Shown here: positions 22,234-42,599 of the stretch, one piece after another
How positions within the stretch are numbered: the stretch's first letter is position 1
Layout: each line of letters begins with the position of its first letter
Assembly: GCA_017475035.1 (NCBI GenBank)
Contig: JAFVGK010000030.1
Span: 1 to 64,000 of the forward strand
Source: Blautia sp.
Lineage (GTDB): Bacteria; Bacillota; Clostridia; Lachnospirales; Lachnospiraceae
Reading direction: 5' to 3'
DNA length: 64,000 nt
Notes under the pieces: model-generated
The model's input: only the letters and a program-made list of their open reading frames with translations
Database searches by the model: none
What the model was told of the DNA's origin: nothing
Position numbers and translations under genes: made by a program

Positions 22234-22333
22234 TTTGTAAAATAATAGGACGGATTTTTATCGTACGGAGCCGGATTGTGTTCTTAGATCCTTGCAGCCG
22301 TGACTGCAAAATCGTCATTCTTAGACTGTTCTT

Positions 22334-22440
22334 AAAGGAGACATATTTTGCTCATGGCTGCGCTTTTTGCATGCATGGCCGCAAAATAGTCATCCGCGGT
22401 CATTGCGTCAATGTACAAAACTTCGTTATGGGAAGAGGAG
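22334..22440 (+). repeat. Element A copy 3, leader of the sirtuin gene
   Basis: Starts AAAGGAGACATATTTTGC and closes the first stem with GCAAAAT. Then come CATCCGCGGTCATTGCGTCA and the ACAAAACTTCGTT stem-loop, ending in GAAGAGGAG, which is the ribosome site for 22449. Confidence 0.85.
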
Positions 22441-22448
22441 GATTTATC

Positions 22449-23174
22449 ATGTCAGCAGAAGTGGAAAGATTACAGGAAATCATCGACCAGCATGACAATA
22501 TTGTTTTTTTCGGCGGAGCCGGAGTGTCTACCGAGAGCGGAATCCCGGACTTCCGCAGCCAGGACGGCCTCTATAACCAGAAATATGACTACCCGCCCGA
22601 GACGATCCTGAGCCATACCTTTTTCATGAGAAAACCTGAAGAGTTTTATAAATTTTACCGGGACAAGATGCTCTGTGATACGGCCAAACCGAATGCCGCG
22701 CATTTGAAGCTTGCGGAACTGGAAAAAGCAGGAAAGCTCAAAGCGGTTATCACGCAGAATATAGATAACCTTCATCAGATGGCCGGCAGCCAGAAGGTTT
22801 ATGAGCTTCATGGAAGCGTCTACCGCAACTACTGTATGAAATGCGGCAATTTCTACGATTTTGCTCATATGAAGGCAAGTACCGGAGTACCCCGGTGTAC
22901 CTGCGGGGGAATCATTAAGCCGGATGTCGTTCTGTATGAAGAAGGTCTGGACAACGATGTCATCAACGGCGCCGTCCGGGCGATCTCCCGCGCCCAGGTT
23001 ATGATCATCGGGGGAACCTCTCTGGCCGTTTATCCGGCTGCAAGCCTGATCGACTATTTCTCCGGAGACTCCCTCGTGGTGATCAACAAATCCGCTACCG
23101 CCCGTGACGTAAATGCCGATCTTCTGATCAAAGAACCGATTGGAGAAGTATTCTCACAGATTATCGTCCGGTGA
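22449..23174 (+). CDS. NAD-dependent protein deacylase, Sir2 family
   Basis: Removes acetyl or other acyl groups from lysines, consuming NAD. The start at 22449 is taken because GGAAGAGGAGGA precedes it; the upstream reading frame from 22278 runs through element A and is not credible as protein. It gives 241 residues, the usual bacterial size. NAD-binding motifs GGAGVSTESGIPDFRS and TQNIDNLHQMAG are complete, the catalytic His is in YELHGSVYRN, and the zinc site CMKC / CTCG is present. The downstream DUF951 gene starts within a few bases of its stop, so the two, with tgt and the LTA synthase gene, form a likely operon. Confidence 0.92.
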   Translation: MSAEVERLQEIIDQHDNIVFFGGAGVSTESGIPDFRSQDGLYNQKYDYPPETILSHTFFMRKPEEFYKFYRDKMLCDTAKPNAAHLKLAELEKAGKLKAVITQNIDNLHQMAGSQKVYELHGSVYRNYCMKCGNFYDFAHMKASTGVPRCTCGGIIKPDVVLYEEGLDNDVINGAVRAISRAQVMIIGGTSLAVYPAASLIDYFSGDSLVVINKSATARDVNADLLIKEPIGEVFSQIIVR

Positions 23175-23179
23175 GGAAT

Positions 23180-23368
23180 ATGCGGTATGACTACGAAATC
23201 GGAGATCAGGTCATATTAAAGAAAAAACATCCCTGCGGCAGTCAGAAATGGGAGATTCTTCGCACGGGGGCTGATTTCCGGCTAAAATGCTGTGGCTGCG
23301 GCCATATGATAATGGTGCCGCGCTCCGCGGTGGAAAAAAGTACCAAACAAGTGATAAAAAACAGTTAG
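23180..23368 (+). CDS. DUF951 domain-containing protein
   Basis: A 62-residue basic protein with GDQVILKKKHPCGS, WEILRTGADFRLKCCGCGH and IMVPRSAVEK, the conserved core of DUF951. The cysteines (PCG, KCCGCGH) suggest a small zinc-binding beta fold. Its function is unknown; a nucleic-acid-binding role is only a guess. ATG at 23180 is chosen over GTG at 23171, which overlaps the sirtuin stop. It lies 9 bases before tgt. Confidence 0.85.
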   Translation: MRYDYEIGDQVILKKKHPCGSQKWEILRTGADFRLKCCGCGHMIMVPRSAVEKSTKQVIKNS

Positions 23369-23377
23369 TGAGGATAT

Positions 23378-24547
23378 ATGGCAGAGTATACGCTGATTCA
23401 TAAACAAGGGAGGGCAAAGAGAGGCAGGTTTGCCACAGTTCACGGTGTAATCGAAACACCGGTTTTTATGAATGTCGGTACGGTTGGGGCGATCAAAGGG
23501 GCTGTATCCACCCAGGATCTGAAGGAAATCGGTACCCAGGTGGAATTGTCCAATACATACCATCTCCATGTACGGCCGGGAGATAAGCTTGTCCGGCAGA
23601 TGGGCGGATTACATCGGTTCATGAACTGGGATCGCCCGATTCTGACGGATTCCGGCGGATTTCAGGTTTTCTCTCTTGCAGGCTTACGCAAGATCAAAGA
23701 AGAAGGAGTGACCTTTCAGTCCCATATCGACGGGCACCGTATCTTTATGGGTCCGGAGGAAAGCATGCAGATTCAGTCAAATCTGGGCTCGACGATCGCG
23801 ATGGCTTTTGACGAATGTCCCAGCAGCATGGCAGACAGAAAATACGTTTCGGCATCTGTGGAAAGAACGACCCGATGGCTTGTCCGCTGCAAAGAGGAGA
23901 TGCAGCGGCTGAATTCCCTTCCTGAGACTCTCAACAAAGAGCAGCTTCTTTTTGGAATTAATCAGGGAGCAGTCTTTGAGGATATCCGGATTGAACATGC
24001 GCAGCAGATTGCCGGGATGAACCTTGACGGATATGCTGTCGGTGGGCTGGCGGTGGGAGAGACACATCAGCAGATGTATCACATTCTGGACGAGGTGGTA
24101 CCATATCTTCCGGCGGACAAGCCCGTTTATCTGATGGGAGTGGGGACGCCGGCAAATATCCTGGAGGCGGTCGACCGGGGAGTGGATTTTTTTGATTGTG
24201 TTTATCCAAGCAGAAACGGGCGCCATGGCCATGTGTACACAAATCATGGAAAAATGAATCTGATGAATGCGCAATACGAAGCAGACCCCCGGCCGATTGA
24301 AGAAGGCTGTCAATGCCCTGCCTGCCGTTTCTATTCGAGAGCCTACATCCGACATCTCTTAAAAGCAAAGGAAATGCTGGGATTACGTCTTTGCGTCCTG
24401 CATAATCTATATTATTACAATCATTTAATGGAAGAAATCCGGGATGCGATCGAGCGGGATGCTTACCCCGAGTATAAAAAGATGAGGCTTGAAGGGTTTG
24501 AAGAAGGCGTGATCCACAGTAAATATGCCGGAAATGAGATGAAATGA
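23378..24547 (+). CDS. tgt: tRNA-guanine transglycosylase
   Basis: Exchanges guanine 34 for preQ1 in tRNAs with GUN anticodons, the base-insertion step of queuosine synthesis. Visible motifs are LTDSGGFQVFSLAGLRKI, the AMAFDECPSS substrate pocket, GGLAVGE and the zinc site CQCPACRFYSRAYIRHL with a later His in VLHNLYYY. Length is 389 residues, as in other bacteria. It is often next to queA and yajC. Here queA is absent, yajC lies one gene further on, and the gene between them encodes an LTA synthase-like protein. Confidence 0.95.
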   Translation: MAEYTLIHKQGRAKRGRFATVHGVIETPVFMNVGTVGAIKGAVSTQDLKEIGTQVELSNTYHLHVRPGDKLVRQMGGLHRFMNWDRPILTDSGGFQVFSLAGLRKIKEEGVTFQSHIDGHRIFMGPEESMQIQSNLGSTIAMAFDECPSSMADRKYVSASVERTTRWLVRCKEEMQRLNSLPETLNKEQLLFGINQGAVFEDIRIEHAQQIAGMNLDGYAVGGLAVGETHQQMYHILDEVVPYLPADKPVYLMGVGTPANILEAVDRGVDFFDCVYPSRNGRHGHVYTNHGKMNLMNAQYEADPRPIEEGCQCPACRFYSRAYIRHLLKAKEMLGLRLCVLHNLYYYNHLMEEIRDAIERDAYPEYKKMRLEGFEEGVIHSKYAGNEMK

Positions 24548-24567
24548 GACGAAAGGAAGGTTGATAC

Positions 24568-26643
24568 ATGGAGGTTGAAAAGCAGCAGAAAAAGGAGGAT
24601 CGGAGGTTTTTTACGGCCTATCGCCTGATCTTTTTTGTGACAGCGATCGGAATTGCCCTTGCAGGAGTTTTGTGCAGAAAAGATATTTTTGCGGAAACGA
24701 TTCCTGTGGTAAAAAAACAGCGGCAGATAGAGCTTTTGCTGATCTGGGCCGCAGGAGTGGCCGGAGTCATCATATTTCCTTATATTTTCAGCTGGAAGAA
24801 ACGGTTCTTCAGCATTCTGTTTTTTCTTCTGTCGCCTTTCTGGATATTTTTGAATATGGAGATCGTGACCACGGTAACCATACCGGAAAACGGTACGCTG
24901 CAGAATATCATCGGTGTTCCTGCGACGACTCCGAAACTGTTCTGGATCAATATCCTGCTCGTTTTTCTTCTTGTATTTCTTTTTACGGTTTTGACGGACA
25001 GTTTTTGTGCCGGTCCGATGCTGGCGGAATTCTTGTGCGTCCTCTTCAGTGTGGTAAATCTCTATGTTACGGAGTTTCGCGGAAATGCCATCTCAGCGCC
25101 TGACTTTATGACGGTAGGCACGGCGATGGAGGTAGCGGGAGAGTATCGTGTCGCTTTGCATTATCGTGTCTATTTAGGCATATTGATTGCCTTTGTATTC
25201 TATGCCGCCGCTTTTTGTTTAAGACGCGCCGTGATCGTCCATTCCGTGAAGGCATATCTTCCGATGGCCGCTGGCGGGACCGCGATTTTTGCTGCGGCAT
25301 TTTATTTCCTTGTATTGACCGGTTTTTTAAAATCCTATGGGATTGGAGTCAGTTATTTCAATACGATGCGTTCCTACAGGACCAGCGGAACCATTGCCGT
25401 ACTTGCACGATCTGTGCAGGAAGCTTTTCCGAAGGTACCGGAAGGTTATTCTGTGGAGGCGGCGCGGAAAATAGCGGAAGCTTATCCTTCCGACGAAGCC
25501 GGAGAAAAATCCGCCGGACCTTCTAAGCAGCAGCCGAATGTGTTTGTGCTTATCGACGAATCCTTTACGGATCTGAAGCTTTTAGGAGATTTTGAAGTTA
25601 CCGAGGATTACATGCCCTGTGTTCATAGTATAAAGAAGAATTGTGTTACGGGAATTTCCTATGCATCTGTTCGGGGAGGAATGACAGCGAATACAGAGTT
25701 TGAGTTTTTGACCGGAAATACAATGGGTCTGTTGTCTGCGTCTGCTGTTCCCTTTCAGATCTATGTAAAGAACGAGCTGCCTTCTATGGCAACCAGTATG
25801 GCGGCACAAGGTTATACGGGACTTCATGCGCTGCATCCCTACACACCTTCAAATTATAACAGGGTGAATGCATATCCTCTGTTAGGCTTTGCGGATTTCA
25901 TATCCTCGGAAAATCTGCCTTTAGAAAGCAGAAAAATCCGTAAATATACCAGTGACGACAGCGATTTTGAAAATATGCTGTATACCTTCGAGAAAGATCG
26001 GGAGAAAAACGCAGGCCCATATTTCTTTTATACGATGACACTGCAGAACCATTCTCCTTATGACCCTGTGTATGAGAATTTTCCTTCAACCGTTCATACG
26101 ACCGGTTTAAAGAGACAATATGAGGATGTGGACCAATATCTTACCCTGATCAAGGCTTCCGACGCGGCCTTCGGGAAGGTTGTAGAATATTTTGAGAAGC
26201 TGGACGAGCCGACCATCCTCCTTTTTGTAGGAGATCATCAGCCGAAGCTGACGGAAGGGTTCTTTACAGAGGTTACCGGAGGACGGAGAAAAGAGCGGGA
26301 TGAAGAGGGAAATATGATTCTCTATCAGGTTCCGTTTGTAATCTGGGCGAATTTCGATATCGGTTGTACCGACGCCGGTGAAACCAGCATGAATTACCTG
26401 CAGACCATGCTGATCGATTCATATGGAGGCAGGCTGACAGGATATCAGAAGTTTTTAAAAGAACTGAAAAAAGATATCCCTGTGATCAATGCCTTTGGAT
26501 ACTACGGTGCTGACGGGAAATTTTACAGTACCGACGATGAGAATTCCCCCTATTATGAAAAAGTAAAAGAGTATGCGATTCTGCAGTACAATAATCTGTT
26601 TGACAAGGGAAACCGGCTGGAAGGTTTTTTTGATCTTGTATAA
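24568..26643 (+). CDS. LTA synthase family protein (membrane sulfatase-fold phosphoglycerol transferase)
   Basis: Transfers glycerol phosphate from phosphatidylglycerol to a growing polymer or glycolipid on the outer face of the membrane, by family. Five hydrophobic segments at about residues 17-245 precede the extracellular catalytic domain at 320-660. The domain has NVFVLIDESFTDL, the nucleophile candidate Thr373 in GMTANTEFEFLTG, and the metal-binding FVGDHQPKL. Length is 691 residues, close to LtaS. It fits with the teichoic-acid decoration genes at 40-64 kb and is the likeliest polymerase of that polymer. GGAAGG precedes the start, 20 bases after tgt. Confidence 0.87.
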   Translation: MEVEKQQKKEDRRFFTAYRLIFFVTAIGIALAGVLCRKDIFAETIPVVKKQRQIELLLIWAAGVAGVIIFPYIFSWKKRFFSILFFLLSPFWIFLNMEIVTTVTIPENGTLQNIIGVPATTPKLFWINILLVFLLVFLFTVLTDSFCAGPMLAEFLCVLFSVVNLYVTEFRGNAISAPDFMTVGTAMEVAGEYRVALHYRVYLGILIAFVFYAAAFCLRRAVIVHSVKAYLPMAAGGTAIFAAAFYFLVLTGFLKSYGIGVSYFNTMRSYRTSGTIAVLARSVQEAFPKVPEGYSVEAARKIAEAYPSDEAGEKSAGPSKQQPNVFVLIDESFTDLKLLGDFEVTEDYMPCVHSIKKNCVTGISYASVRGGMTANTEFEFLTGNTMGLLSASAVPFQIYVKNELPSMATSMAAQGYTGLHALHPYTPSNYNRVNAYPLLGFADFISSENLPLESRKIRKYTSDDSDFENMLYTFEKDREKNAGPYFFYTMTLQNHSPYDPVYENFPSTVHTTGLKRQYEDVDQYLTLIKASDAAFGKVVEYFEKLDEPTILLFVGDHQPKLTEGFFTEVTGGRRKERDEEGNMILYQVPFVIWANFDIGCTDAGETSMNYLQTMLIDSYGGRLTGYQKFLKELKKDIPVINAFGYYGADGKFYSTDDENSPYYEKVKEYAILQYNNLFDKGNRLEGFFDLV

Positions 26644-26654
26644 AAAGAAAATAC

Positions 26655-26683
26655 TTGAAGTATCCCCTCTTTTTGTGTATCAT
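26655..26683 (+). promoter_or_regulatory. Possible yajC promoter
   Basis: TTGAAG at 26655-26660, 17-base spacer, TATCAT at 26678-26683, about 95 bases before the start codon. Confidence 0.5.
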
Positions 26684-26779
26684 AGTGAAAGCGTTTTGCA
26701 ACAGAAAAAAGGCAATCATCAGAAGCTATTATGAAAGCCGGGGAGCCTCCCCGGAGACTGAACGAAACAGGAGGTTAAT

Positions 26780-27088
26780 ATGTCAGAGAGCGCAGTAGCA
26801 GGCACAGCCAGCATGGGATTTAGCATTATTTGGATTCTTGCCCTGGTGGCAATGATGTATTTCATGATGATCCGTCCCCAAAGGAAAGAGCAGAAGCGTG
26901 TAGCCGCGATGCTGAATGATATGGAGGTCGGGGACAGCGTAGTGACGACCAGCGGCTTTTATGGCGTGATCATTGATATGACTGATGAAGACGTTATCGT
27001 AGAGTTTGGCAATAACAAAAACTGTAGGATCCCGATGCGCAAGCAGTCCATTGCAGAAGTAGAAAAGGCAGATCAGGCAACGGCGTGA
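26780..27088 (+). CDS. yajC: Preprotein translocase accessory subunit YajC
   Basis: A 102-residue single-pass membrane protein that associates with SecDF and assists Sec-dependent export. One membrane segment is at residues 13-32 (IIWILALVAMMYFMMI), followed by the family hallmark RPQRKEQKR and a cytoplasmic domain with GDSVVTTSGFYGVI. Length matches the family. AGGAGG lies 8 bases upstream. It is likely monocistronic, with a terminator hairpin at 27109-27142. Confidence 0.93.
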   Translation: MSESAVAGTASMGFSIIWILALVAMMYFMMIRPQRKEQKRVAAMLNDMEVGDSVVTTSGFYGVIIDMTDEDVIVEFGNNKNCRIPMRKQSIAEVEKADQATA

Positions 27089-27108
27089 TCGGCAGCCATA
27101 TCAAACAT

Positions 27109-27142
27109 GGAAAGGTGTCGCGCGAGCGGCACCTTTCCTTCA
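27109..27142 (+). terminator. Terminator after yajC
   Basis: Arms GGAAAGGTG and CACCTTTCC around a GC-rich loop, with a short TTCAT tail. Element C copy 2 begins at the tail. Confidence 0.65.
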
Positions 27143-27232
27143 TATCCCGGAGTCGTCCAAAGGAAGATGTCACCTGTCGGTGACAGGCGGCTCGGGGGAG
27201 GGAAGAGCGGAGGCTTCACCTCCCTCTGCCCT
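27143..27232 (+). repeat. Element C copy 2
   Basis: A 90-base copy closely matching 971-1060, from TATCCCGGAG to CTCTGCCCT, with the stem CCTGTCGGTGACAGG. It is followed by more GC-rich hairpin sequence (GCTGCCGCCTGACGGCGGCA) up to about 27292. Confidence 0.8.
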
Positions 27233-27335
27233 ATCGCCGGAAAGCCTGCGGCAGGGCTGCCCGAAAGAAGCTGCCGCCTGACGGCGGCAGGCAGTCAGCA
27301 AAGGAAAATGTCAGCAAAGATGAAAGGATATAATT

Positions 27336-29006
27336 ATGAAAAGTGATGCCGTTAAGATCGGGTCGGCACAGGCGCCTCACCGTTCGTTATTTAATGCGTT
27401 GGGTCTTACCAAAGAAGAATTGTCCCGTCCGCTGGTAGGTATTGTCAGCTCATACAATGAGATTGTTCCGGGACATATGAACCTGGATAAAATCGTGGAA
27501 GCGGTTAAGCTCGGGGTCGCTATGGCTGGCGGTACTCCGATCGTATTTCCTGCGATCGCTGTCTGCGACGGGATTGCCATGGGGCATATCGGCATGAAAT
27601 ATTCTCTCGTTACACGTGACCTGATTGCGGATTCTACCGAAGCAATGGCAACCGCCCACCAGTTTGACGCGTTGGTGATGGTACCGAATTGTGATAAAAA
27701 CGTACCAGGTCTTTTGATGGCTGCCGCAAGGGTGAATGTACCGACAGTATTTGTCAGCGGCGGCCCGATGCTTGCCGGACATGTCCAGGGTCACAAAACC
27801 AGCCTTTCCAGTATGTTCGAGGCAGTTGGAGCCTATGCGGCAGGCAAGCTTGACGAAGACGGTCTTCTGGAATATGAGAATAAAACCTGTCCGACCTGCG
27901 GCTCCTGCTCAGGCATGTATACGGCGAACAGCATGAACTGCCTGACAGAGGTTCTGGGTATGGGACTTCGGGGAAATGGTACGATTCCGGCCGTTTACTC
28001 TGCCCGTATCCGCCTGGCAAAGGAAGCAGGCATGCAGGTTATGGAGATGTACCGTCGGAACATCCGTCCACGGGATATTATGACGAAAGAAGCGATCCTG
28101 AATGCGCTGACGGTTGACATGGCTCTGGGCTGCTCTACAAACAGCATGCTGCATCTTCCCGCCATTGCCCATGAGATCGGCTGGGATTTTGATATCAGCT
28201 TCGCGAATGAAATCAGTGCCAGAACGCCGAATCTGTGCCATCTGGCTCCTGCGGGTCCTACCTATATGGAGGATCTTGATGAGGCAGGCGGTGTCTATGC
28301 CGTGATGAATGAGCTGGATAAGCTGAATCTTCTCAATAAGGATTGTATTACCGTTACGGGCAGGACCGTAGGAGAAAACATTGCGGATTGCGTGAACAAA
28401 AACCCGAACGTGATACGTCCTGTTGACAAACCGTATTCTCCGAACGGAGGCCTTGCTGTCCTTAAGGGAAATCTTGCGCCGGACGGCAGTGTTGTAAAGA
28501 GGAGCGCGGTTGTGCCTGAGATGATGGTCCATACAGGCCCTGCCAGGGTATTTGACTGTGAAGAAGACGCGATAGACGCGATTAAAGGAGGAAAGATTCT
28601 TCCCGGAGATGTGGTGGTCATCCGCTACGAAGGACCGAAGGGCGGTCCCGGCATGAGAGAAATGCTGAACCCGACATCCGCTATTGCAGGTATGGGACTG
28701 GGGTCTTCGGTGGCGCTGATTACGGACGGAAGATTCAGCGGAGCTTCCAGAGGCGCATCGATCGGCCATGTTTCTCCCGAAGCTGCCGTCGGCGGTCCGA
28801 TTGCATTGGTACACGAGGGAGATATCATCGAGATCAACATCCCGGAAATGACATTAAACCTTGACGTTTCCGAAGAAGAGCTCGAGAGAAGAAAAGCAGC
28901 ATGGCAGCCAAGACAGCCTCGTGTTACAACAGGTTATCTTGCCCGCTACGCCGCTATGGTTACTTCCGGCAACCGCGGGGCGATTCTGGAAGTACCGAAA
29001 GCCTGA
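27336..29006 (+). CDS. ilvD: Dihydroxy-acid dehydratase
   Basis: Dehydrates 2,3-dihydroxy-isovalerate and -methylvalerate to the 2-keto acids of valine and isoleucine. GAAAGG lies upstream of the start. Iron-sulfur cysteines are visible in [30 protein letters not shown] and [12 protein letters not shown]; the C-terminal [13 protein letters not shown] loop is conserved. The 556-residue length is standard. It is followed by ilvB, but ilvC, ilvN and leuABCD are not in the window. The stop lies beside element B copy 6. Confidence 0.95.
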
Positions 29007-29046
29007 TCCGTAGAATCAGGCTTTTGTCGATGCAATCATAAAATGA
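28998..29046 (+). repeat. Element B copy 6 (right end)
   Basis: AGCCTGATCCGTAGAATCAG, then CTTTTGTCGATGCAATCATA. It starts at the last codons of ilvD, whose TGA stop is part of the CCTGATCC segment. Confidence 0.75.
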
Positions 29047-29048
29047 TT

Positions 29049-29183
29049 GCAGGAGGCAGTGAATCAACGTACAAAACTGTGTTTCAGAAGACATATTCTG
29101 TCCTGGACCGCGAAGCGCTACAGGCAGCAAAATCGTCATCCGAAGACATTGAGTCAACGTACAGAACTTCGTTTTAGAAGGAG
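29049..29183 (+). repeat. Element A copies 4a and 4b, leader of ilvB
   Basis: A partial copy (29049-29086: AGGAGGCAGTGAATCAACG, AAAACTGTGTTTC) runs straight into a full copy (29087-29183: AAGACATATTCTG, CCTGGACCGCG/CAGG hairpin, CATCCGAAGACATTGAGTCA, AGAACTTCGTTTTAG, AAGGAG). The last AAGGAG is the ilvB ribosome site. Confidence 0.85.
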
Positions 29184-29193
29184 TGAAAAAAAG

Positions 29194-33114: not shown

Positions 33115-33139
33115 GATCATGCTGCAATCCTAATATTGT

Positions 33140-33176
33140 GGGGCGGTTTCTTGCATGCAGGGAACCGTCTCCTTTT
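33140..33176 (+). terminator. Terminator after serA
   Basis: GGCGGTTTC pairs with GGAACCGTC (two wobbles) around TTGCATGCAG, followed by TCCTTTT. It closes the ilvB-serC-serA transcript. Confidence 0.65.
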
Positions 33177-33186
33177 CATATCATGA

Positions 33187-33261
33187 TGATTCAGGCGGCA
33201 AAAGGTCATGCAAAAAGGGCTCGCTCATTTTTGCATGAGACCGCTTCGCCTGAATCATATC
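33187..33261. repeat. Element B copy 7, compact palindromic form
   Basis: A 75-base copy whose two ends are both left termini: TGATTCAGGCGGCAAAAGG and CGCCTGAATCA. The inside is the long hairpin GTCATGCAAAAAGGGCTCGC / TCATTTTTGCATGAG. The whole unit can fold on itself. Confidence 0.8.
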
Positions 33262-33332
33262 GCACAGCCTGTGCAATGAAGATGACGGCAGAGCTGACGC
33301 GCTTTCCTTTGTCGTATACAGGTAGCATATTT

Positions 33333-34748: not shown

Positions 34749-34828
34749 AGCCTGCCTGACGGGGTTTGCTGCTATCTGCGAACCGGCCTGTTATCGTGCG
34801 GGACGTGAATGGTGCCCCGGGGTTTCAC

Positions 34829-34856
34829 AGAATCAGGCTTTTGTTGATGCAATCAT
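34829..34856 (+). repeat. Element B copy 8 (right end)
   Basis: AGAATCAGGCTTTTGTTGAT followed by GCAATCAT. It ends exactly where the glyA -35 box begins. Confidence 0.7.
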
Positions 34857-34885
34857 TTGACAGTCAGGAAGAAATCGTATATAAT
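34857..34885 (+). promoter_or_regulatory. glyA promoter, consensus
   Basis: Perfect TTGACA at 34857-34862, 17-base spacer, perfect TATAAT at 34880-34885. The leader of about 150 bases includes element A copy 5. Confidence 0.85.
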
Positions 34886-34932
34886 CCCCTAAAAGCTGAA
34901 AAACTATTGACATGGTTGTGTAACAGACAACA

Positions 34933-35035
34933 AAGGAGACTGATTCTGTTTTCGGCAGATCCGGCTGCCGAAGCATCAAAATCGCCGTCCGAAGACAGTG
35001 TGTCAGTATAAAACCACGTTCTAAGAGGAGGAATA
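34933..35035 (+). repeat. Element A copy 5, leader of glyA
   Basis: AAGGAGACTGATTCTG, hairpin TTCGGCAG / CTGCCGAA, then GTCCGAAGACAGTGTGTCAG, and AAGAGGAGG as the ribosome site. CTGTTTTCGG in the 5' part can instead pair over ten bases (one wobble) with CCGAAGACAG downstream. Confidence 0.85.
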
Positions 35036-35042
35036 ATATCGT

Positions 35043-36281
35043 ATGTACTCGATTGAGGATGTCCGTTCCGTAGACCCGCAGATTGCCGAGCTCCTTCAGA
35101 AGGAGTACGACCGGCAGAATTCTCACATTGAACTGATTGCGTCCGAAAACTGGGTAAGCAAGGCTGTCATGGCAACGATGGGAAGTGTCTTGACAAATAA
35201 ATACGCGGAAGGTTATCCGGGGAAGAGATTTTATGGCGGCTGTGAATGTGTGGACGAGGTCGAAGCGCTGGCTATTGAACGGGCGAAGGAGCTTTTTCAT
35301 TGTGAATACGCGAACGTACAGCCACATTCCGGTGCTCAGGCAAATATGGCGGTAGAGTTTGCCATTCTCAAGCCCGGCGATACCCTTATGGGTATGAATC
35401 TTGCCCATGGCGGACATCTGACACACGGGAGTCCGGCAAATCTGTCCGGCACCTATTATCATGTGGTTTCCTATGGCGTGAATGATGACGGCGTGATTGA
35501 TTATGATGAAGTGCTCCGCATTGCCAGAGAGTGCAGACCGAAGCTGATCATTGCGGGAGCAAGCGCTTATGCAAGGATCATTGATTTCAAGCGTTTCAGA
35601 GAGATTGCGGATGAAGTCGGCGCATACCTGATGGTCGATATGGCGCATATCGCGGGACTTGTTGCGACAGGACAGCATCCCAGCCCGATTCCCTATGCGG
35701 ATGTGACGACAACGACCACGCATAAAACTCTGCGTGGACCGAGAGGCGGTCTCATTTTGTGCAGTGAGGAGAACGCAAAGAAATTTAACTTTAACAAAGC
35801 GATTTTCCCCGGTACCCAGGGCGGTCCCTTAATGCATGTCATCGCCGCCAAGGCGGTTTGCTTCAAAGAAGCATTATCACCGGAATTTGCACAGTACGGG
35901 AAGCAGATTGTCCTGAATTCCAAAGCTTTGTGCAAAGGACTCATGGATCGCGGGATTTCGATCGTTTCCGGCGGCACGGACAATCATCTGATGCTGGTAG
36001 ATCTGAGCAGGCTGGAGCTTTCCGGAAAAGACGTACAGAATATGCTGGATGAAGTGAACATTACCAGCAATAAAAATACCATTCCGAATGATCCTCGTTC
36101 CGCTTTTGTGACCAGCGGGATCCGTCTGGGTACCCCGGCTGTCACCTCCCGCGGGATGAATGAAGCGGATATGGACGTGATCGCGCAGGCGATCTCGATG
36201 ACCATCTTCCGGACAGGCACTCCGGACGAGGCAAAAGCGCTGGTGAAGTCTTTGACAGACAAATATCCGCTTGTCGGTTGA
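35043..36281 (+). CDS. glyA: Serine hydroxymethyltransferase
   Basis: Interconverts serine and glycine, charging tetrahydrofolate with a one-carbon unit; a PLP enzyme. The N-terminal half shows [30 protein letters not shown] and the PLP lysine in [14 protein letters not shown]. The C-terminal [22 protein letters not shown] is typical. The 412-residue length is standard. It sits near serC and serA but has its own consensus promoter, so serine and glycine supply can be controlled separately. AGAGGAGG supplied by element A is the ribosome site. Confidence 0.97.
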
Positions 36282-36288
36282 GGTGTCT

Positions 36289-36384
36289 GAAGGAGACATA
36301 TTTTGTCCCGGAGCGTGAAGCGCGACAGGCAACAAAATAGTCATCCGGACGGTATGTCGGTTTACAATCAGCATTGTAAGAGGA
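36289..36384 (+). repeat. Element A copy 6, between glyA and the trxB-like gene
   Basis: GAAGGAGACATATTTTGT closed by ACAAAAT, with GTCCCGGA able to pair with TCCGGAC. The second stem is TTACAAT-CAGC-ATTGTAA, quite different in sequence from the CAAAAC/GTTTTG of other copies yet perfectly paired. It ends AAGAGGAGA. Confidence 0.85.
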
Positions 36385-36385
36385 G

Positions 36386-36407
36386 AATGATTCAGGCGGC
36401 AAAAGAT
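36386..36407 (+). repeat. Element B copy 9 (left end)
   Basis: TGATTCAGGCGGCAAAAGAT directly after the end of element A copy 6, separating that copy's ribosome-like motif from the gene at 36443. Confidence 0.6.
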
Positions 36408-36442
36408 TATTAAAACAGAAAAAAACAGTCGGGAGAGAAAAA

Positions 36443-37309
36443 ATGGAACAGGTTATTATTATGGGCGGAGGCCCGGCTGGGGTTTCAGCCGCTTTATATG
36501 CAAGACGCGGCGGGTTGGATCCGCTGTTGATTCATCACGGTCCGGGAGCTTTGGCAAAGGCAGAGTGCATCGAGAATTATTATGGTCTGGAAAGACCATT
36601 GACAGGGTTGGAGCTGTATGAAAGAGGTCTTTCTCAGGCGAAAGCACTCGGTATCCGGATTCTGGAGGCGGAAGTCCTGGAGATTGGAGGATTTGATACT
36701 TTTGAAGTCAAGACGACGGCAGGAGACTTTGAGACTGTCAGTGTGATTCTTGCTACCGGCAGCAAGCGACTGACGCCGGATATCAAAGGCGTCAAAGAAC
36801 TGGAGGGGAGAGGAGTCAGCTACTGCGCGATCTGCGATGCTTTCTTTTACAGGGGAAAGCAGGCTGCGGTTTTGGGCAATGCGGATTTTGCTCTTCATGA
36901 GGCGGAGCTTTTATCCCAGACAGGCGTGGGCGTAACGATTTTGACAGACGGTAAACCGGCAGAGTTTTCCAGGAAGACAGATCTTCCTGTTCTCACTGGG
37001 AAGGTATTGTCGGTGGAGGGAACGGAAAAAGTTACGGGCGTTTTGCTGGAAGGCAGCGAAGAGCCTCTTTTGGCCGAGGGTATCTTTGTGGCCCTCGGAA
37101 ATGCCGGCAGTGCCGAGATTGCCCGGCAGATGGGCGCGGAGCTCAATGAAAAAGGGAATATAAAGGTAGATGACCAGATGTCAAGCACCATACCGGGTCT
37201 CTATGCCGCAGGCGACTGCGCGGGAGGACTTCTGCAGGTCGCAAAAGCCGTGCATGAAGGAGCCGTCGCGGGATTGAGCGCGGTGAAATACGTGAAGAGA
37301 AAGAAATGA
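36443..37309 (+). CDS. Thioredoxin reductase-like flavoprotein, possibly ferredoxin-dependent (FFTR type)
   Basis: Reduces thioredoxin (trxA lies next). The FAD motif is GGGPAGVSAALYARRGG and the redox pair is Cys128-Cys131 in CAICDAFFYRG; the C-terminal PGLYAAGDCAGG binds FAD. The NADPH domain is unusual: the canonical GGGxSA loop reads VLGNADFALHEA and the HRR motif that grips the NADPH phosphate is not seen after TILTDG. The chain is also short, 288 residues. Loss of both NADPH motifs is the mark of the clostridial ferredoxin-dependent flavin thioredoxin reductase, so that is the preferred reading, by inference. Start by GGGAGAG upstream. Its stop codon lies in element B copy 10. Confidence 0.75.
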   Translation: MEQVIIMGGGPAGVSAALYARRGGLDPLLIHHGPGALAKAECIENYYGLERPLTGLELYERGLSQAKALGIRILEAEVLEIGGFDTFEVKTTAGDFETVSVILATGSKRLTPDIKGVKELEGRGVSYCAICDAFFYRGKQAAVLGNADFALHEAELLSQTGVGVTILTDGKPAEFSRKTDLPVLTGKVLSVEGTEKVTGVLLEGSEEPLLAEGIFVALGNAGSAEIARQMGAELNEKGNIKVDDQMSSTIPGLYAAGDCAGGLLQVAKAVHEGAVAGLSAVKYVKRKK

Positions 37310-37437
37310 ACGGATTCCGGGCGGCTGTTGCTGCATGCCGGCAGCATGCGGTCAGCAAGGACCGTTTCAGTTACACGGCGGGCAACGTTTGAAACGACCG
37401 GGCCGTAGAATCAGGTTTTGACAATGCAATCATGTTA
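37304..37437 (+). repeat. Element B copy 10 (right half), overlaps the trxB-like stop
   Basis: AAATGAACGGATTCCGGGCG corresponds to AAATGAGCGGATTCCGAGTG of other copies, so the TGA stop at 37307-37309 belongs to the repeat. It continues with TTGCTGCATGCC / GGCAGCATGCGGTCAGCAA and ends GACAATGCAATCA. Confidence 0.75.
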
Positions 37438-37457
37438 TGACAGAAAGGAATACGAAA

Positions 37458-37757
37458 ATGGAAAAGATTTTGACTTCACAGAACTTTGATGCTGAGCTTG
37501 CTGCTGCCGGAAAACCGATGCTTGTGGATTTTTGGGCTACCTGGTGCGGCCCCTGCAAGAGGCAGGCTCCGATTCTGGCAGAACTGGCTGAAGAAGGATA
37601 TGCGATCGGAAAGGTTGACGTGGATGAAAATCCTGATCTTGCACAGAAATTTGGTGTCATGAGTATTCCGACCATGATTATTTTTAAAGACGGGAAGGAA
37701 GAGAAGCGATTGGTAGGCCTGACGGCTAAGGATGTATTAAAAGAAATGCTGGCATAA
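37458..37757 (+). CDS. trxA: Thioredoxin
   Basis: A 99-residue cytoplasmic disulfide reductant. The active site is WCGPCK with Cys30 and Cys33; the cis-proline follows in MSIPTMIIFKDG. The start at 37458 is preferred to 37437 because AGAAAGGAA lies just upstream and the N terminus then matches other thioredoxins. It pairs with the reductase-like gene upstream, from which it is separated by element B copy 10. Confidence 0.95.
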   Translation: MEKILTSQNFDAELAAAGKPMLVDFWATWCGPCKRQAPILAELAEEGYAIGKVDVDENPDLAQKFGVMSIPTMIIFKDGKEEKRLVGLTAKDVLKEMLA

Positions 37758-37832
37758 CTATGTAACTGGTTTTTATGGTATGCTCCAGTCGTTTCCTGAA
37801 GATTGAGAGGATGGAAAGGAAGGCATAGTATT

Positions 37833-37946
37833 ATGGCTCATGGGTTTTATGATCCGAAAAAACGTAAAAGGATTACGGCTATTATTGCATTGATCCTGGT
37901 TCTGGCACTCGTGGTACCAAGTGTTTTATCGGTGCTGATCCGGTGA
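37833..37946 (+). CDS. Small single-pass membrane protein, 37 residues
   Basis: A short reading frame: MAHGFYDPKKRKR, then a hydrophobic helix ITAIIALILVLALVVPSVLS ending before VLIR. GGAAAGGAAGG lies upstream, the basic patch before the helix predicts an inside-positive N terminus, and a terminator follows at 37985-38026, all of which support a real gene. I do not recognise a named family. It probably shares the trxA transcript. Confidence 0.65.
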   Translation: MAHGFYDPKKRKRITAIIALILVLALVVPSVLSVLIR

Positions 37947-37984
37947 TGAAGTGACAAGGATATTTTGTCCTGTCAAAGAATATG

Positions 37985-38026
37985 TTGTAAAGGGACAGAG
38001 CCTTATTCAGGCCTTTGTCCCTTTCA
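37985..38026 (+). terminator. Terminator after trxA and the small membrane gene
   Basis: AAAGGGACAGAGCC and GGCCTTTGTCCCTTT form a stem ending in a TTTCATTTG tail. Confidence 0.75.
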
Positions 38027-38035
38027 TTTGTTTAT

Positions 38036-38086
38036 GATTCAGGCGGCAGAAGGTTACGCAAAAGAAGGTCGCTCGTTTCATGATTC
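38036..38086 (+). repeat. Element B copy 11 (left part)
   Basis: TGATTCAGGCGGCAGAAGGT and GGTCGCTCGTTTCATGATTCA; a degraded short copy upstream of the kinase gene. Confidence 0.6.
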
Positions 38087-38112
38087 ATCGAAAGCTCTGA
38101 AAGGCTGATTAT

Positions 38113-39069
38113 ATGGAGAAAAAGGATATTACTGTCATTGGCGCCGGGGTGATTGATGTATTGGCCGGTCCTGTGACTTCCGGTATTTTTGAGAGCGGGT
38201 CTGAACCGATGAGCTTTACCAGGCTGGCCTTTGGAGGGGACGCCCTGAATGAAGCGGTTGCCCTTTCGAGGATGGGAAAGAAGATCGAGCTGGTTTCTCT
38301 TGTCGGAGATGACGAAGCCGGGATGAGAGTTTTGGGTTTTTTAAATCAGAATGGTGTAGGGACAGATCACGTCAAAGTATCGCAGGGTCTGGAGACCGGC
38401 GTCAATATTGTACTGGTTGACGAGTTTCATGAACGTCATTTTCTGACAAATCCGGGCAGCAGTCTGCGCAGGCTTTCCGAGCAGGATATTTTTCCTTACA
38501 TCGAAGGGATGGCAGATATCGTTTCGTTTGCAAGCATGTTTGTTTCGCCGCTGCTGGATATTCCGGCTATGTTGCGCCTCTTTGCAAAGATCAAAGAAAA
38601 ATCCGGAAGGACTCTCGCGGTGGATCTGACTAAAGCAAAAAAACAGGAGAGACTGGAGGACATTGCCGTTCTCTTTCCTTATATAGATTATCTGCTGCCA
38701 AACGAAGCAGAACTGGCTGTTCTTGCAGGTTCGGATCATACGGAAAGAAATCTTGACAAGATCTTGGATCTTGGAGCAAAGTGTGTCATTCTGAAAAGAG
38801 GAAAAAGCGGATGCGTCATCTGCAGGAATCGGGAACGAATAGAGATACCTGCTTTTCCGGTACGGCAGGCGGTCGATACGACAGGGGCGGGAGATTGCTT
38901 TGCCGCGGGCTTTCTCGCGGCCTTATCTGATCAGATGGCTCTGGAAGACTGCTGCCGTTATGCCTGCGCCGCGGCATCCTGTTCCGTAGAGGCTGTAGGA
39001 GCGACAGAAGGACTGACGACATTAGGCGAGGTACGAAGAAGGTTTCAGTTTTTAAGTGAGGCAGAGTAA
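38113..39069 (+). CDS. PfkB-family carbohydrate/nucleoside kinase
   Basis: Phosphorylates a sugar or nucleoside with ATP in the cytoplasm. The ribokinase-fold signatures are present: GGDALNEAVALSRMG with GDDEAGMRVL near the N terminus, PNEAELAVLAG in the middle, and DTTGAGDCFAAGF with the catalytic Asp261. Length is 318 residues. GAAAGG lies upstream. Neighbouring genes give no clue to the substrate: no transporter, isomerase or aldolase is beside it. Confidence 0.87.
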   Translation: MEKKDITVIGAGVIDVLAGPVTSGIFESGSEPMSFTRLAFGGDALNEAVALSRMGKKIELVSLVGDDEAGMRVLGFLNQNGVGTDHVKVSQGLETGVNIVLVDEFHERHFLTNPGSSLRRLSEQDIFPYIEGMADIVSFASMFVSPLLDIPAMLRLFAKIKEKSGRTLAVDLTKAKKQERLEDIAVLFPYIDYLLPNEAELAVLAGSDHTERNLDKILDLGAKCVILKRGKSGCVICRNRERIEIPAFPVRQAVDTTGAGDCFAAGFLAALSDQMALEDCCRYACAAASCSVEAVGATEGLTTLGEVRRRFQFLSEAE

Positions 39070-39129
39070 AGACTGTCGGAACTCCGGCTTTTATCAGAGA
39101 TTAAGTCGGAATATAAAACTTTTTTTTGC

Positions 39130-39230
39130 GAGGAGACATATTTTGCCCGCGGCTGCGTTTTTGCAGGCGTGGCTGCAAAATAGTCATCCGTGGTCATTGA
39201 GTCAACTTACAAAACTTCTTTTTGAAGGAG
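39130..39230 (+). repeat. Element A copy 7 (first of a tandem pair)
   Basis: GAGGAGACATATTTTGC, hairpin CCGCGGCTGC / GCAGGCGTGG, GCAAAAT, ATCCGTGGTCATTGAGTCAA, CAAAACTTCTTTTTG and GAAGGAG, which is also the start of copy 8. Confidence 0.85.
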
Positions 39231-39323
39231 ACATATTTTGTCCTAGAGCGCGCAGCGCGATAGGGTACAAAATAGTCATCCGGACAGTAAGTCACAATCT
39301 ATATCGTGCGTTATAGGAGGAGG
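39224..39323 (+). repeat. Element A copy 8 (second of a tandem pair), leader of the CDF gene
   Basis: GAAGGAGACATATTTTGT, hairpin CCTAGAGCGC / GCGCGATAGG, ACAAAAT, ATCCGGACAG. The last stem is CTATA-TCGTGCGT-TATAG, replacing CAAAAC/GTTTTG by a different pairing. It ends AGGAGGAGG, the ribosome site for 39332. Confidence 0.85.
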
Positions 39324-39331
39324 AAACAGGA

Positions 39332-40471
39332 GTGGATAATACAAAAGCTTCACCTGCCGTGAAGGTAAGGGATCGCAATAAAGTGATCATCAGAACGAGT
39401 CTGATTGGTATTGCGGCCAATATTCTTTTGGCCGGGTTTAAAGCAATCGTAGGCTTAAGCGCCCATTCGATTGCGATTGTGCTGGATGCCGTTAATAATT
39501 TCTCGGATGCTCTGTCATCCGTGATCACGATTATCGGTACCCGTCTCGCCAATAAAATGCCCGATAAGCAGCATCCTCTGGGACATGGCCGCGCGGAGTA
39601 TTTAACCGCGATGCTGGTTTCCGCTCTTGTTTTGTATGCCGGCATGACTTCTCTGGTAGAATCAGTGAAAAAAGTGATTAATCCGGAGACCGCCAGCTAT
39701 TCCGGGCTTTCTTTATTGATCATGGGCGTAGCGATTGTGGTAAAGCTGATTCTCGGCAGCTTTGTGAAAGCAAGGGGAACGGAGGTCAATTCCGGATCTT
39801 TGATTGCTTCCGGGGAAGACGCCCGGTTTGACGCGATTCTGTCTGCTTCGGTTTTAGCCTCTGCCGTGATTTTTATTCTGACGGGCATTTCCCTGGAAGC
39901 TTATGTAGGCCTCGTTATAGCCATTATGATCATAAAATCAGGGATTGAGATGATAAGCGAGGCTCTGGATGACGTTCTGGGCCACCGTCCTGACAGTGAA
40001 TTGACAGAGCGGATCAAACAGCTGCTTGTGGAGGAGGAGCCGGTAAGAGGCGCCTATGACCTGTTCCTGAATGATTACGGCCCGGACAGGTACTATGCAT
40101 CCGTCCATCTGGAGCTTCCGGATACGATGACGGTTGGGGAGGTTGATGTCCTCACCAGAAAGCTGCAGACAAAAGTTCATAAAGAGACCGGGGTTATTCT
40201 GACGGGCGTGAGTGTATATTCTTATAACACCTCTGACAGCGAGGCTGCGGATATACGGAACGCGGTTTTAAAGACAGTAAAAGCCCATGACTGGGTTCTG
40301 CAGGTTCATGGATTCTATCTGGATACGAAGAAAAAGGATATGCGCTTTGATGTCGTCATGAGCTTTGATATTGACAGCAAGGATGGATTAAAACAGATCT
40401 GTGAAGAGGTTTCTGCGATGTATCCGGATTATCAGCTGACGATTACGCCGGATCTGGATCTGTCAGATTGA
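39332..40471 (+). CDS. Cation diffusion facilitator (CDF) family transporter
   Basis: Exports a divalent metal by proton antiport. GTG at 39332 is the start, 8 bases after AGGAGGAGG. Six hydrophobic segments lie between residues 22 and 215. The metal-site helices read DAVNNFSDALSSVI and HPLGHGRAEYL; an Asn stands where zinc transporters often have His, which suggests manganese or iron, but this is inference. The soluble C-terminal part is long (379 residues in all, against about 300 for simple CDFs) and appears to carry two ferredoxin-like regulatory domains. Confidence 0.88.
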   Translation: MDNTKASPAVKVRDRNKVIIRTSLIGIAANILLAGFKAIVGLSAHSIAIVLDAVNNFSDALSSVITIIGTRLANKMPDKQHPLGHGRAEYLTAMLVSALVLYAGMTSLVESVKKVINPETASYSGLSLLIMGVAIVVKLILGSFVKARGTEVNSGSLIASGEDARFDAILSASVLASAVIFILTGISLEAYVGLVIAIMIIKSGIEMISEALDDVLGHRPDSELTERIKQLLVEEEPVRGAYDLFLNDYGPDRYYASVHLELPDTMTVGEVDVLTRKLQTKVHKETGVILTGVSVYSYNTSDSEAADIRNAVLKTVKAHDWVLQVHGFYLDTKKKDMRFDVVMSFDIDSKDGLKQICEEVSAMYPDYQLTITPDLDLSD

Positions 40472-40583
40472 TCAAAGAAACCAAAATGCGGATGCGAAGC
40501 AGCCGCAGGAGCGCGCAGCGCGGATTTTGCGAATGCCGTTGGTATCGGTCACTTTAGTGACCGCACAGGTCGAAATTCCGTCA

Positions 40584-40685
40584 GGGGAGGATACTGATTT
40601 TGTCTTCGGCAGCCCAACTGTCGAACGGCAAATCGTCCTTAGAGGATCTTGAGTCAACGGACAAAACTGTGTTTAGGGAGGAGGG
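40584..40685 (+). repeat. Element A copy 9, leader of the first LicD gene
   Basis: GGGGAGGATACTGATTTTG, hairpin CTTCGGCAG-CCCAA-CTGTCGAA, a diverged middle CGTCCTTAGAGGATC, then TTGAGTCAACGGACAAAAC, TGT, GTTT, and AGGGAGGAGGG as ribosome site. Confidence 0.8.
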
Positions 40686-40692
40686 AGCGTTC

Positions 40693-42471
40693 ATGACAAA
40701 GAAACAGGAACAGCTGCTTGGTCTGCTGCGTGAATTTGACGCTGTTTGCCGGAAGCATGGCCTTCGGTATGTCATGGCAGGGGGGAGCCTGATCGGTGTC
40801 ATGCGGAATGAGGGCTTTATTCCCTGGGATGACGACATAGATGTGTATATGCCTCTTGCTGACTGGGAAAGGATGAAGGCACTGCCGAAGGAGGAGTTTC
40901 CTTTTCAGAGGACTCTGGTCAGCGTGGAGCTGGATCGGCGTTACACAAATACGTTTCCCAGATATGGATCAACGGATACCTGCGCGATTCACAAGCATCA
41001 GCTGATTGCGGATGATATAGCAGGAGAGATCATCGATGTGCTTGTCCTGGACCCGATTCCCGATGACCGGGCATATATACGATATCGGAAAGATATGATG
41101 ATCTATTCAGAGCTGATCAATATCAATAGTGTCTTTTGCAGCCGATATGAGCTTCCTCTATTCGATTTTTTCTTTTATCGGTTTCTGTATAAGGTATTGG
41201 GAAGAGACCGGACTCTCAGGCTTCTGGAGCGGAAAATGTTTGCCTGTGAGGAGGAAAGATGTGACAGGGTCGCGATGCGGTGGGGCGGATGTCCTTTTTT
41301 ATTTGAAAAGGACATGTTTTTTCCCGTAAAGGAAGCATCTTTTGAAGGACTCCGGGTCATGATCCCCCGCCGGACCAGCGATTACCTGATCTGGCATTAT
41401 GGAGATGAATGGGCTGACGTACCGCCTCATAAAGAGAGAGAATCCCATGAGGCTGTCTGTGTGGAAGGGATGGATTATCAGACCTTCCGAAAAAGCTATC
41501 AGCCTTTGCTTGATAAAGAAAAAATCTGGCGGGATCAGATGAAATATAAGGCTTACAGGATACGGACGGCGAAACATCGTCATCGTCTGGAAAACGAAAA
41601 ACTCAGGCTTGCTGCTCTTTGCGTAACAATGGATCTGGATAAACGCGCAGCGGAAACAGGGGAAAGCCTCTCTTCCTTGACAGAAAAAAAAGATTTTGGC
41701 ACGTTGAGTTACATTTTTGCCGAATACTACCGTGTCCAGCTAGGCGCATTTTTCATCGGAAGGGAAGACTATGCGAATATCTACCGCTTTTATCATCCTT
41801 ACGTCATTGACCTTGACCCTGACGTCTTTCAGGCAGCGGTTACGACTTTATTTTTTACGGAAAAGCTTGCAAAAGCAAAACGGCTGACAGATGTCTGGAA
41901 AGAAAAGCATTCGTTGAATGAAGAGCTGATAAAAATGGATGAAGCGATCACAAAGCATCGAGAGGCTCTGAATGAGCAGGAACAGTCTATGACCCAAAAA
42001 GCCGTTCAGCTTGTAGAGGAACTATTGTCGGAATTTCCGTATCATCCGTCTTTTTCTAAAACCCGGCTTCAGCTTTATCGTGATACGGATGGAAAAATTA
42101 CCTGTGAAGAAGGCATAAAGTTTCTGAAAGCCTGTCGGAAGCGATTTCCTGATGATGGTTATTTTCTGAAGTATGAAGCGGATCTGATCTGGCAGAGAAA
42201 GGGAATGGAGTCTGCTTTGCCGGTGTACGCCAAAGCAATGGAACAGACGAAGAACGGAATCATCTGGAAAGAAATCCGGAATCAGCTCATTGATATTGCG
42301 CGGCAAAGAAGCAGGGAACTGCAGCTTCTTTTAAAGGATGAAAAGCATAAGAAGGACGCCAGACGTGAAAGAAAACTCTGGAAGAAAATATATCCCGGAG
42401 AGGAGACAGATTTTATCTTCGGCAGCCCAACTGCCGAAGCAGCAAAGTCGTCATCCGAAGACAATGCGTAA
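40693..42471 (+). CDS. LicD family phosphotransferase with long helical C-terminal extension
   Basis: LicD proteins attach phosphocholine or another phospho-group from a CDP donor to surface glycans. The start at 40693 follows AGGGAGGAGGG; the longer reading from 40600 is element A. The nucleotidyltransferase motif is intact: GGSLIGVMRNEGFIPWDDDIDVYM, with Asp46-Asp48 and Asp50. After residue 270 a helical region of about 320 residues follows, with TPR-like spacing near 440-560 (inference). The last 20 or so residues (EETDF to SSEDNA) and the stop codon are encoded by element A copy 10. Total length is 592 residues, about twice a minimal LicD. The second LicD-like gene follows 133 bases on. 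Confidence 0.82.
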   Translation: MTKKQEQLLGLLREFDAVCRKHGLRYVMAGGSLIGVMRNEGFIPWDDDIDVYMPLADWERMKALPKEEFPFQRTLVSVELDRRYTNTFPRYGSTDTCAIHKHQLIADDIAGEIIDVLVLDPIPDDRAYIRYRKDMMIYSELININSVFCSRYELPLFDFFFYRFLYKVLGRDRTLRLLERKMFACEEERCDRVAMRWGGCPFLFEKDMFFPVKEASFEGLRVMIPRRTSDYLIWHYGDEWADVPPHKERESHEAVCVEGMDYQTFRKSYQPLLDKEKIWRDQMKYKAYRIRTAKHRHRLENEKLRLAALCVTMDLDKRAAETGESLSSLTEKKDFGTLSYIFAEYYRVQLGAFFIGREDYANIYRFYHPYVIDLDPDVFQAAVTTLFFTEKLAKAKRLTDVWKEKHSLNEELIKMDEAITKHREALNEQEQSMTQKAVQLVEELLSEFPYHPSFSKTRLQLYRDTDGKITCEEGIKFLKACRKRFPDDGYFLKYEADLIWQRKGMESALPVYAKAMEQTKNGIIWKEIRNQLIDIARQRSRELQLLLKDEKHKKDARRERKLWKKIYPGEETDFIFGSPTAEAAKSSSEDNA

Positions 42472-42498
42472 ACGTACAAAACTTCGTTATTGTAAGGA
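42400..42498 (+). repeat. Element A copy 10, encodes the C terminus of the LicD protein
   Basis: AGGAGACAGATTTTATC, hairpin CTTCGGCAG-CCCAA-CTGCCGAAG, CATCCGAAGACAATGCG then TAA. The peptide read through it matches the insert in the protein at 15268. It runs into copy 11. Confidence 0.85.
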
Positions 42499-42599
42499 GA
42501 CATATTTTGCCCACGGCTGCGCTTTTTGCAGGCGCAGCTGCAGAATAGTCATCCGTGGTCATTGAGTCAACGTACAAAACTTCGTTTTGGAAGGAGGGA
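42493..42599 (+). repeat. Element A copy 11, leader of the second LicD-like gene
   Basis: AAGGAGACATATTTTGC, hairpin CTGCGC / GCGCAG, and CCACGG able to pair with CCGTGG downstream. Then TTGAGTCAACGTACAAAAC, TTC, GTTTTG and GGAAGGAGGG. This is the clearest copy of the family. Confidence 0.88.

Follow-up and report, generated by a model that had tools for sequence, protein, structure and literature searches.

BOX elements contain inner modules that are repeated. In Streptococcus pneumoniae these elements, assembled from box modules, lie near genes and are deemed parasitic by the authors of the account in PMC3049150. The Rickettsia palindromic elements (RPEs) are described in PMC10969869 as short palindromic repeats lying in frame in protein genes, with a peptide encoded by the element itself. 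According to the survey in PMC3733652, REP sequences and the GTAG- and CGTC-tagged palindromes are high-copy hairpins, some of them within open reading frames (ORFs), and their host genes include those for the UvrD/REP helicase and recBCD; in the same source, uni-REPs lie near the 3' end of the upstream ORF at a variable distance from the downstream one, and CGTC repeats (including RPE-4 and RPE-6) apparently have no dedicated transposase. Among all IStrons surveyed in PMC4227781, 118 of 202 insertions were intragenic and 64 of these 118 were in frame. Here we analyzed a window of 64,000 nucleotides (nt) from Blautia sp. GCA_017475035.1 (contig JAFVGK010000030.1, positions 1 to 64,000), in which a preliminary description had noted eleven copies of a 5' leader with covarying hairpins. 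We put the probability at roughly 0.8 that we are dealing with a small, non-autonomous palindromic repeat that is mobile and inserts into purine runs resembling the Shine-Dalgarno (SD) sequence in the orientation of the gene.

The eleven noted places are copies of one repeat, and all of them were recovered by a profile search that was started from nine of these copies and then iterated. In the window this search gave 13 hits, the two additional ones being a degenerate fragment (22267-22326) and a 5'-truncated copy (29050-29089). Across 842,039 sampled bases of this genome the profile scored 155 hits, or 132 copies after dropping 23 hits that overlap a better one. These comprise 97 full copies, 22 without the 5' part, 11 without the 3' part and 2 internal ones; the truncation counts are upper bounds, as at least one of the 22 “5'-truncated” copies (L058:10601) resembles a diverged full copy. 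All sampled regions except C132 were chosen for having hits, so that the sample is biased to hit-bearing regions. Four contigs with 563,039 bases contain 78 copies, from which about 700 can be extrapolated for the 5.08 Mb assembly, a rough estimate because the four contigs are long and were already known to have hits. The window copies are the local share of a dispersed repeat. Their shared motifs are looser than had been claimed. The 5' motif GGAGACATATTTTG is exact at five places, with 21 window hits at up to three mismatches against 8.1 expected (0 of 100 shuffles reach 21), and the 3' motif TTGAGTCAACGTACAAAAC is present at eight places at up to three mismatches, one of them exact (0.01 expected). 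Moreover, copy 8359 is without the 5' half, and copies 36291 and 39226 have a different 3' half.

The placement of the copies relative to start codons is non-random. The right end is intact in 119 copies, of which 80 are situated 4–17 nt ahead of a start codon; a further 16 form upstream units of tandem arrays, and three lie in genes. The start-codon test asks for a frame of at least 60 codons starting 4–17 nt past the profile end; 14.4% of random positions pass it, as do 30% of GGGAGG/AGGAGG motifs. With ATG as the only start, 70 of the 119 copies pass versus 8.1% at random, and a looser window of 30 nt lets through 69 of the 97 full copies and 15 of the 22 5'-truncated ones (random 27%). In 125 of 130 cases a copy shares its strand with the first predicted gene that follows it, and a copy is found directly upstream of 71 of the 625 predicted genes (at least 100 amino acids) in the sample, about one gene in nine; gene calls came from a simple codon-usage script and no standard gene finder.

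The element is about 95 nt long and falls into three main subfamilies (types 1–3) plus some chimeras. A full copy reads AGGAGAC-[T/A][G/T]ATTTTG-hairpin-CAAAAT[C/A]-GTC-A-TCC-G...-stem-GGGAGGAG, where the right end GGGAGGAG is an SD sequence with the long hairpin, and often a second stem, on its 5' side. Information in the flanks climbs at AGGAG on the left and drops past GGAGGAG on the right. We propose that insertion takes place in one orientation into AGGAG or AGGAGG and would leave AGGAG on both sides. As the element brings GGGAGGAG as its own right end, the gene hit would keep an SD at the normal distance from its start codon; as both ends are then AGGAG, further insertions could build head-to-tail tandem arrays. 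An AGGAG within a gene that stands in the common frame (xAG GAG, e.g. Lys-Glu) would accept a type 1 copy, whose consensus is free of stops in that frame, at the price of about 31 added residues. Such insertion into AGGAG is the simplest account, as it would cover at once where the copies lie and which way they point, why an SD is retained, how tandem arrays arise and which frame is used within genes.

Nine predicted genes contain copies, eleven of the 132 in total, which are all in sense and in a single frame (ETDFVFGSPTAEAAKSSSEDIESTYKTSFWEE). Four are C-terminal extensions, including that of the LicD gene (42401), and the remainder are internal, in TrpE, CobB, an ABC permease, a DUF2264 protein and ORF 15268-15996; the CobB insert consists of three consecutive units between its two domains. 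Targeted fetching added a HelD-like helicase, an AddA helicase and a C-terminal case in another genome of the genus (G021). In the HelD-like protein, exactly the 31-residue insert is missing in all 12 aligned relatives (17 searched). The AddA peptide is present in none of the 16 aligned relatives (of 17 that matched, G039 being excluded), two of which hold other residues in that loop. The sites before insertion were probably ATGGAG|GAGAAC in the HelD-like gene and CAGGAG|GAAAGC in AddA, where removal of the insert by eye leaves the SD-like sequences ATGGAGGAGAAC and CAGGAGGAAAGC, respectively. The TrpE and CobB inserts are also unmatched in relatives, and the TrpE insertion site is a hypervariable loop. 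In three other species (G035, G008 and G011; L123, L124 and L125) the same loop of TrpE holds unrelated long hydrophilic insertions.

Within genes, AGGAG occurs 718 times in the frame of the observed peptide, 298 times in the one that would run into TGA and 80 times in the third, a preference that would account for much of the single-frame pattern. On gene strands AGGAG is also more frequent in sense (1096) than in antisense (494). We considered sense-only insertion as a proof of an RNA-level mechanism and rejected it, because with this bias nine of nine genes in sense are merely mildly unexpected. Coding selection on the predicted peptide was likewise rejected: changes at the three codon positions number 64/49/66 in genic and 181/206/221 in intergenic type 1 copies, which gives no clear purifying selection. 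In a further genome, RGIG2469, ETDSVRERVSEAAAKSSSGQNGRRELPFTEE lies in frame within FtsK with a peptide different from that of the present genome, and 10 of 12 open frames traversing a copy share the frame found here while two use other frames.

We then looked at the distribution of the element. Seven of 64 genomes of the genus have matches, the present one included, and the six others carry diverged copies; these counts are lower bounds, from 150 own and 64 per-genome candidates scored. A structural pattern matched at least 92 stretches, and the 80 matches listed come from 13 metagenome-assembled genomes (MAGs), which among these matches are labelled Clostridia, Clostridiales, Lachnospiraceae or Blautia and, where the title names a source, derive from the gut of goat, sheep or dairy cattle. 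At least three of the genus genomes are also among the 13 MAGs, namely G021 (‘Blautia sp.’ RGIG5706), G018 (RGIG513) and G047 (RUG12824). At these loci a start codon lies 2–23 nt past the SD for 63 of the 84 pattern matches (a count made with no random control), and 7 of 84 directly precede another unit. The element sequences vary by species. In a strict-pattern scan of 397 genomes of the family (334 genera) the present genome alone matched; an exact 19-mer had no match across the genome contigs collection, nor did one query or pattern each in phages, plasmids and viral contigs. A full-text search, with subscription literature mostly outside its reach, located no report of a repeat targeting SD sequences or of such repeats in Lachnospiraceae.

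In single folds GGAGAC pairs with GTC-A-TCC and encloses the long hairpin. Six of the seven copies folded exceed their shuffles in stability (z −2.6 to −9.4), and the glyA leader is no more stable than shuffled sequences (z −0.7; 44 of 200 shuffles equally stable). For covariation counts, a structure of 32 pairs was drawn by hand from single folds and laid on 72 of the 74 listed copies of this genome (L043:14021-14097 and L032:1-100 were excluded). In this alignment 84.9% of cells are paired, versus 79.1% in shuffles and 32–47% when the structure is slid, and 150 cells have changed on both sides versus 64 in shuffles; two of five measures are weak, with double-change pairs matched by 15 of 500 shuffles and further pair types by 77 of 500. 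RNAalifold alone on the same mixed alignment gave just 6 pairs (−1.75 kcal/mol). Among 42 copies from 13 genomes, 86.8% of cells are paired versus 78.8% in shuffles, with 101 double-sided changes versus 34, and columns 9–56 hold GC in 16 copies and UA in 26. Most outer-stem letters in 32 of these 42 rows were fixed by the search pattern, columns 9 and 56 being independently free, so that in this set more weight belongs to the inner helix and the tail. The covarying structure that had been described does exist. An alternative pairing of 5' GTCTTCGG with downstream CCGAAGAC, seen by eye, was set aside because chimeric copies such as 29086 break it.

This covariation is found between subfamilies, with little compensation within them. 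Pair-keeping double changes in the outer helix, inner helix and tail number 7, 8 and 2 in type 1 (43 copies) against 4.8, 3.5 and 2.6 expected if both helix sides mutate independently, and 0, 2 and 2 in type 2 (24 copies) against 0.6, 1.4 and 0.8. The six helix counts sum to 21 against 13.7, a small excess to which the type 1 inner helix contributes most; changes on one side, mostly leaving the position unpaired, predominate. The scarcity of compensation within subfamilies suggests that copies decay after insertion. Judged from these alignments, individual copies appear barely constrained to fold, and the fold would be maintained chiefly by those lineages that spread. From lineage to lineage, the stem before the SD swaps its whole sequence yet can pair (CAAAAC/GTTTTG, TATAAC/GTTATA, TTACAAT/ATTGTAA, TTATAC/GTATAA, GTGAAC/GTTCAC). 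It is by no means a general feature: a 5-bp Watson-Crick stem is present before the SD in 29% of 118 own copies versus 2.7% of 222 SDs without the element, in 21 of 28 distinct copies of a goat MAG (shuffles 1.3%), in 6 of 32 of the largest other MAG, and in 40 of 87 copies over ten genomes (shuffles 0 to 7%).

The preliminary description took the covariation as the mark of a selected RNA structure, and a host cis-regulatory RNA class (an attenuator, a thermosensor or a protein-bound leader) placing many genes under joint control would account for the covarying hairpins, the stem before the SD (in the present genome and the goat MAG), the position at start codons and the slight excess of compensation within subfamilies. 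We nevertheless consider it very unlikely. Upkeep of pairing at individual loci, as in a riboswitch, shows only that small excess amid predominantly one-sided changes, and covariation as the sign of a regulatory class is not supported; the genes downstream are unrelated, and the copies include tandem arrays, 5' truncations and chimeras. Together, the tandem copies, the in-frame copies within unrelated protein genes and the species-specific sequences are the behaviour of a mobile repeat. The earlier statement that no named RNA class matches is supported: neither in the window nor in 140 kb of a second contig did any Rfam family reach its threshold at the element. A repeat once mobile might also have been domesticated as a module for translation or mRNA stability, now retained since a hairpin with a strong SD boosts expression. 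The SD kept at most right ends with normal spacing and the share of genes with a copy directly upstream agree with this. The stems, however, decay with little compensation, and the need of the gene for translation is sufficient alone to explain why the SD is retained; we regard domestication as unlikely.

As for how a mobile repeat of this kind would move, a tentative possibility, to which we give somewhat less than even odds, is movement as DNA, driven by an unseen IS200/IS605- or IS607-type transposase, enzymes that use a short site and make no target duplication. The short flanking site, the direct AGGAG ends, the hairpins near both of them and the fact that no inverted repeat of the ends was seen speak for it; against it, the genome holds a single Y1 transposase fragment, which adjoins other hairpins, in a search that did not extend to serine recombinases. 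Movement of this type after a site ending in GG (PMC4227781) is the best-precedented guess. Alternatively, the element could be a structured retro-element whose RNA finds SDs by base pairing, with TCC as the guide, and whose copying into the site starts at the 3' end. On this view the single orientation, the SD on the right and the copies that lack 5' parts but keep their 3' ends would all be accounted for, and it would mean a class of mobile elements homing to ribosome-binding sites; we think it quite unlikely.

Several observations weigh against a mobile repeat aimed at SD sites. Twenty of the 119 right-end-intact copies fall outside every placement class, and in three MAGs other than RGIG2469 six open frames run through copies and use all three frames. 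Searches of this genome for Y1, reverse transcriptase and autonomous copies found no mobilising gene: the sole Y1 transposase hit is incomplete, cut off by the edge of its contig, and the stretch around it has no significant element match; the stretches around seven reverse transcriptase matches have no significant element (best E 0.29); and none of four same-strand pairs of halves within 9 kb was recognised as an autonomous copy with an ORF between its 5' and 3' halves, the gene list being inspected for the L022 pair alone. An associated RAYT, as REP sequences have, was thus not found beyond this one Y1 fragment, in a MAG that is 93.6% complete and may miss genes. The probable sequences before insertion were reconstructed by eye from relatives about 50–70% identical in these proteins. 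Checked as a miniature inverted-repeat transposable element, the repeat has ends that are direct repeats of AGGAG; the left GGA pairs with TCC in the fold, so that AGGAG of the element and of the target, and hence a target duplication and element sequence, are indistinguishable. The contig of the Y1 fragment (L091:1-350) starts within an IS200-type transposase gene followed by several hairpins of the CCCTT.CAGGG type, and its start is possibly an assembly break at a multicopy insertion sequence.

In the window all 13 hits are on the plus strand, and seven of them stand directly before start codons, as had been described for the copies generally. They are the 5'-truncated copy 8359-8410 (profile positions 45-96), ending 6 nt before ATG 8417 of a beta-lactamase/NamZ gene; the type 2 copy 22336-22437 before ATG 22449 (Sir2 family); the chimeric copy 29086-29183 (hit 29087), with a type 3-like hairpin and a type 1 tail, before the gene of an acetolactate-synthase-like (IlvB-like) thiamine pyrophosphate enzyme; the type 1 copies 34934-35030 before ATG 35043 (glyA/SHMT) and 40588-40683 before ATG 40693 (LicD); and the second units of two tandem pairs, 39226-39322 (type 3) before GTG 39332 (cation efflux) and 42495-42596 (type 2) before ATG 42605. 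The first units of these pairs, 39131-39224 (type 2) and 42401-42494 (type 1, its 5' part forming the C-terminal codons of LicD gene 40693-42471), the truncated copy 29050 and the fragment 22267, upstream of copy 22336, sit just upstream of another unit. The type 3 copy 36291-36385, with the tail TTACAAT/ATTGTAA, has its gene start (36443; a pyridine-nucleotide oxidoreductase in Pfam) 59 nt on. The type 1 copy 15341-15420 lies near the N terminus of ORF 15268-15996, which has no Pfam match, and shares the frame of the remaining copies within genes (EPDLVFVSQTAEARKSSSEDIAST). Pfam agrees with the names given to the led genes (sirtuin, the acetolactate-synthase-like enzyme, SHMT, cation efflux, one LicD and the beta-lactamase/NamZ fusion) and finds no match for the second “LicD” (42605-43540). 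The glyA leader of the displayed plus-strand relatives has no copy equivalent to 34934-35030. A second palindromic repeat family (AGTAAACGAAT...ATTCGTTTACT; L052:19700-19890 and L062, upstream of 1501) recurs in the present genome and precedes glyA in G021. The gene at 8417-12655 encodes a fusion of 1412 residues, with a beta-lactamase-family domain and the N and C domains of NamZ (exo-N-acetylmuramidase). Clostridiales-1 RNA (RF01699) has three matches in the window (45365-45562, 52604-52803 and 57275-57476) but was absent from 140 kb of contig C90. Some 35 bases at the margin of the three matches are also present at other places and adjoin the truncated copy 29050.

If the proposed mechanism is right, it suggests a rule for tolerable insertion, namely to aim for an SD and leave an SD behind. 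With about one in nine leaders occupied and predicted peptides added to housekeeping enzymes, the element bears on gene annotation, on the evolution of leaders and on the gain of loops by proteins. In the literature cited, protein-coding palindromes are described from Rickettsia and other Gram-negative groups; here the same behaviour appears in Clostridia of the ruminant gut, with two different element-encoded predicted peptides in two genomes, and the spread of RPE-like repeats becomes testable outside obligate intracellular bacteria. By analogy with the accounts consulted, the element seems to work like RPEs and like REPs within genes, and its SD placement sets it apart. It resembles RPEs, as described in PMC10969869, in being a short, hairpin-forming palindrome that lies in frame within unrelated protein genes with its own predicted peptide; it differs in the phylum of its hosts, in its size (about 95 nt versus about 150 bp) and in that most copies sit at the SDs of genes and carry an SD; the likeness drawn here is one of behaviour. 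With REPs and the GTAG- and CGTC-tagged palindromes, as surveyed in PMC3733652, it shares high-copy hairpins of which some lie within ORFs, but unlike the uni-REPs of that survey it keeps a nearly constant distance to the downstream start and comes with no RAYT found. Like the BOX elements of PMC3049150, the repeat lies near genes; SD placement is absent from that account. Finally, the IStrons of PMC4227781, of which group B comes closest to the present element, taken over all groups surveyed insert partly within genes and partly in frame, whereas IStrons hold a group I intron and an insertion sequence with genes, for both of which the present element is too short.

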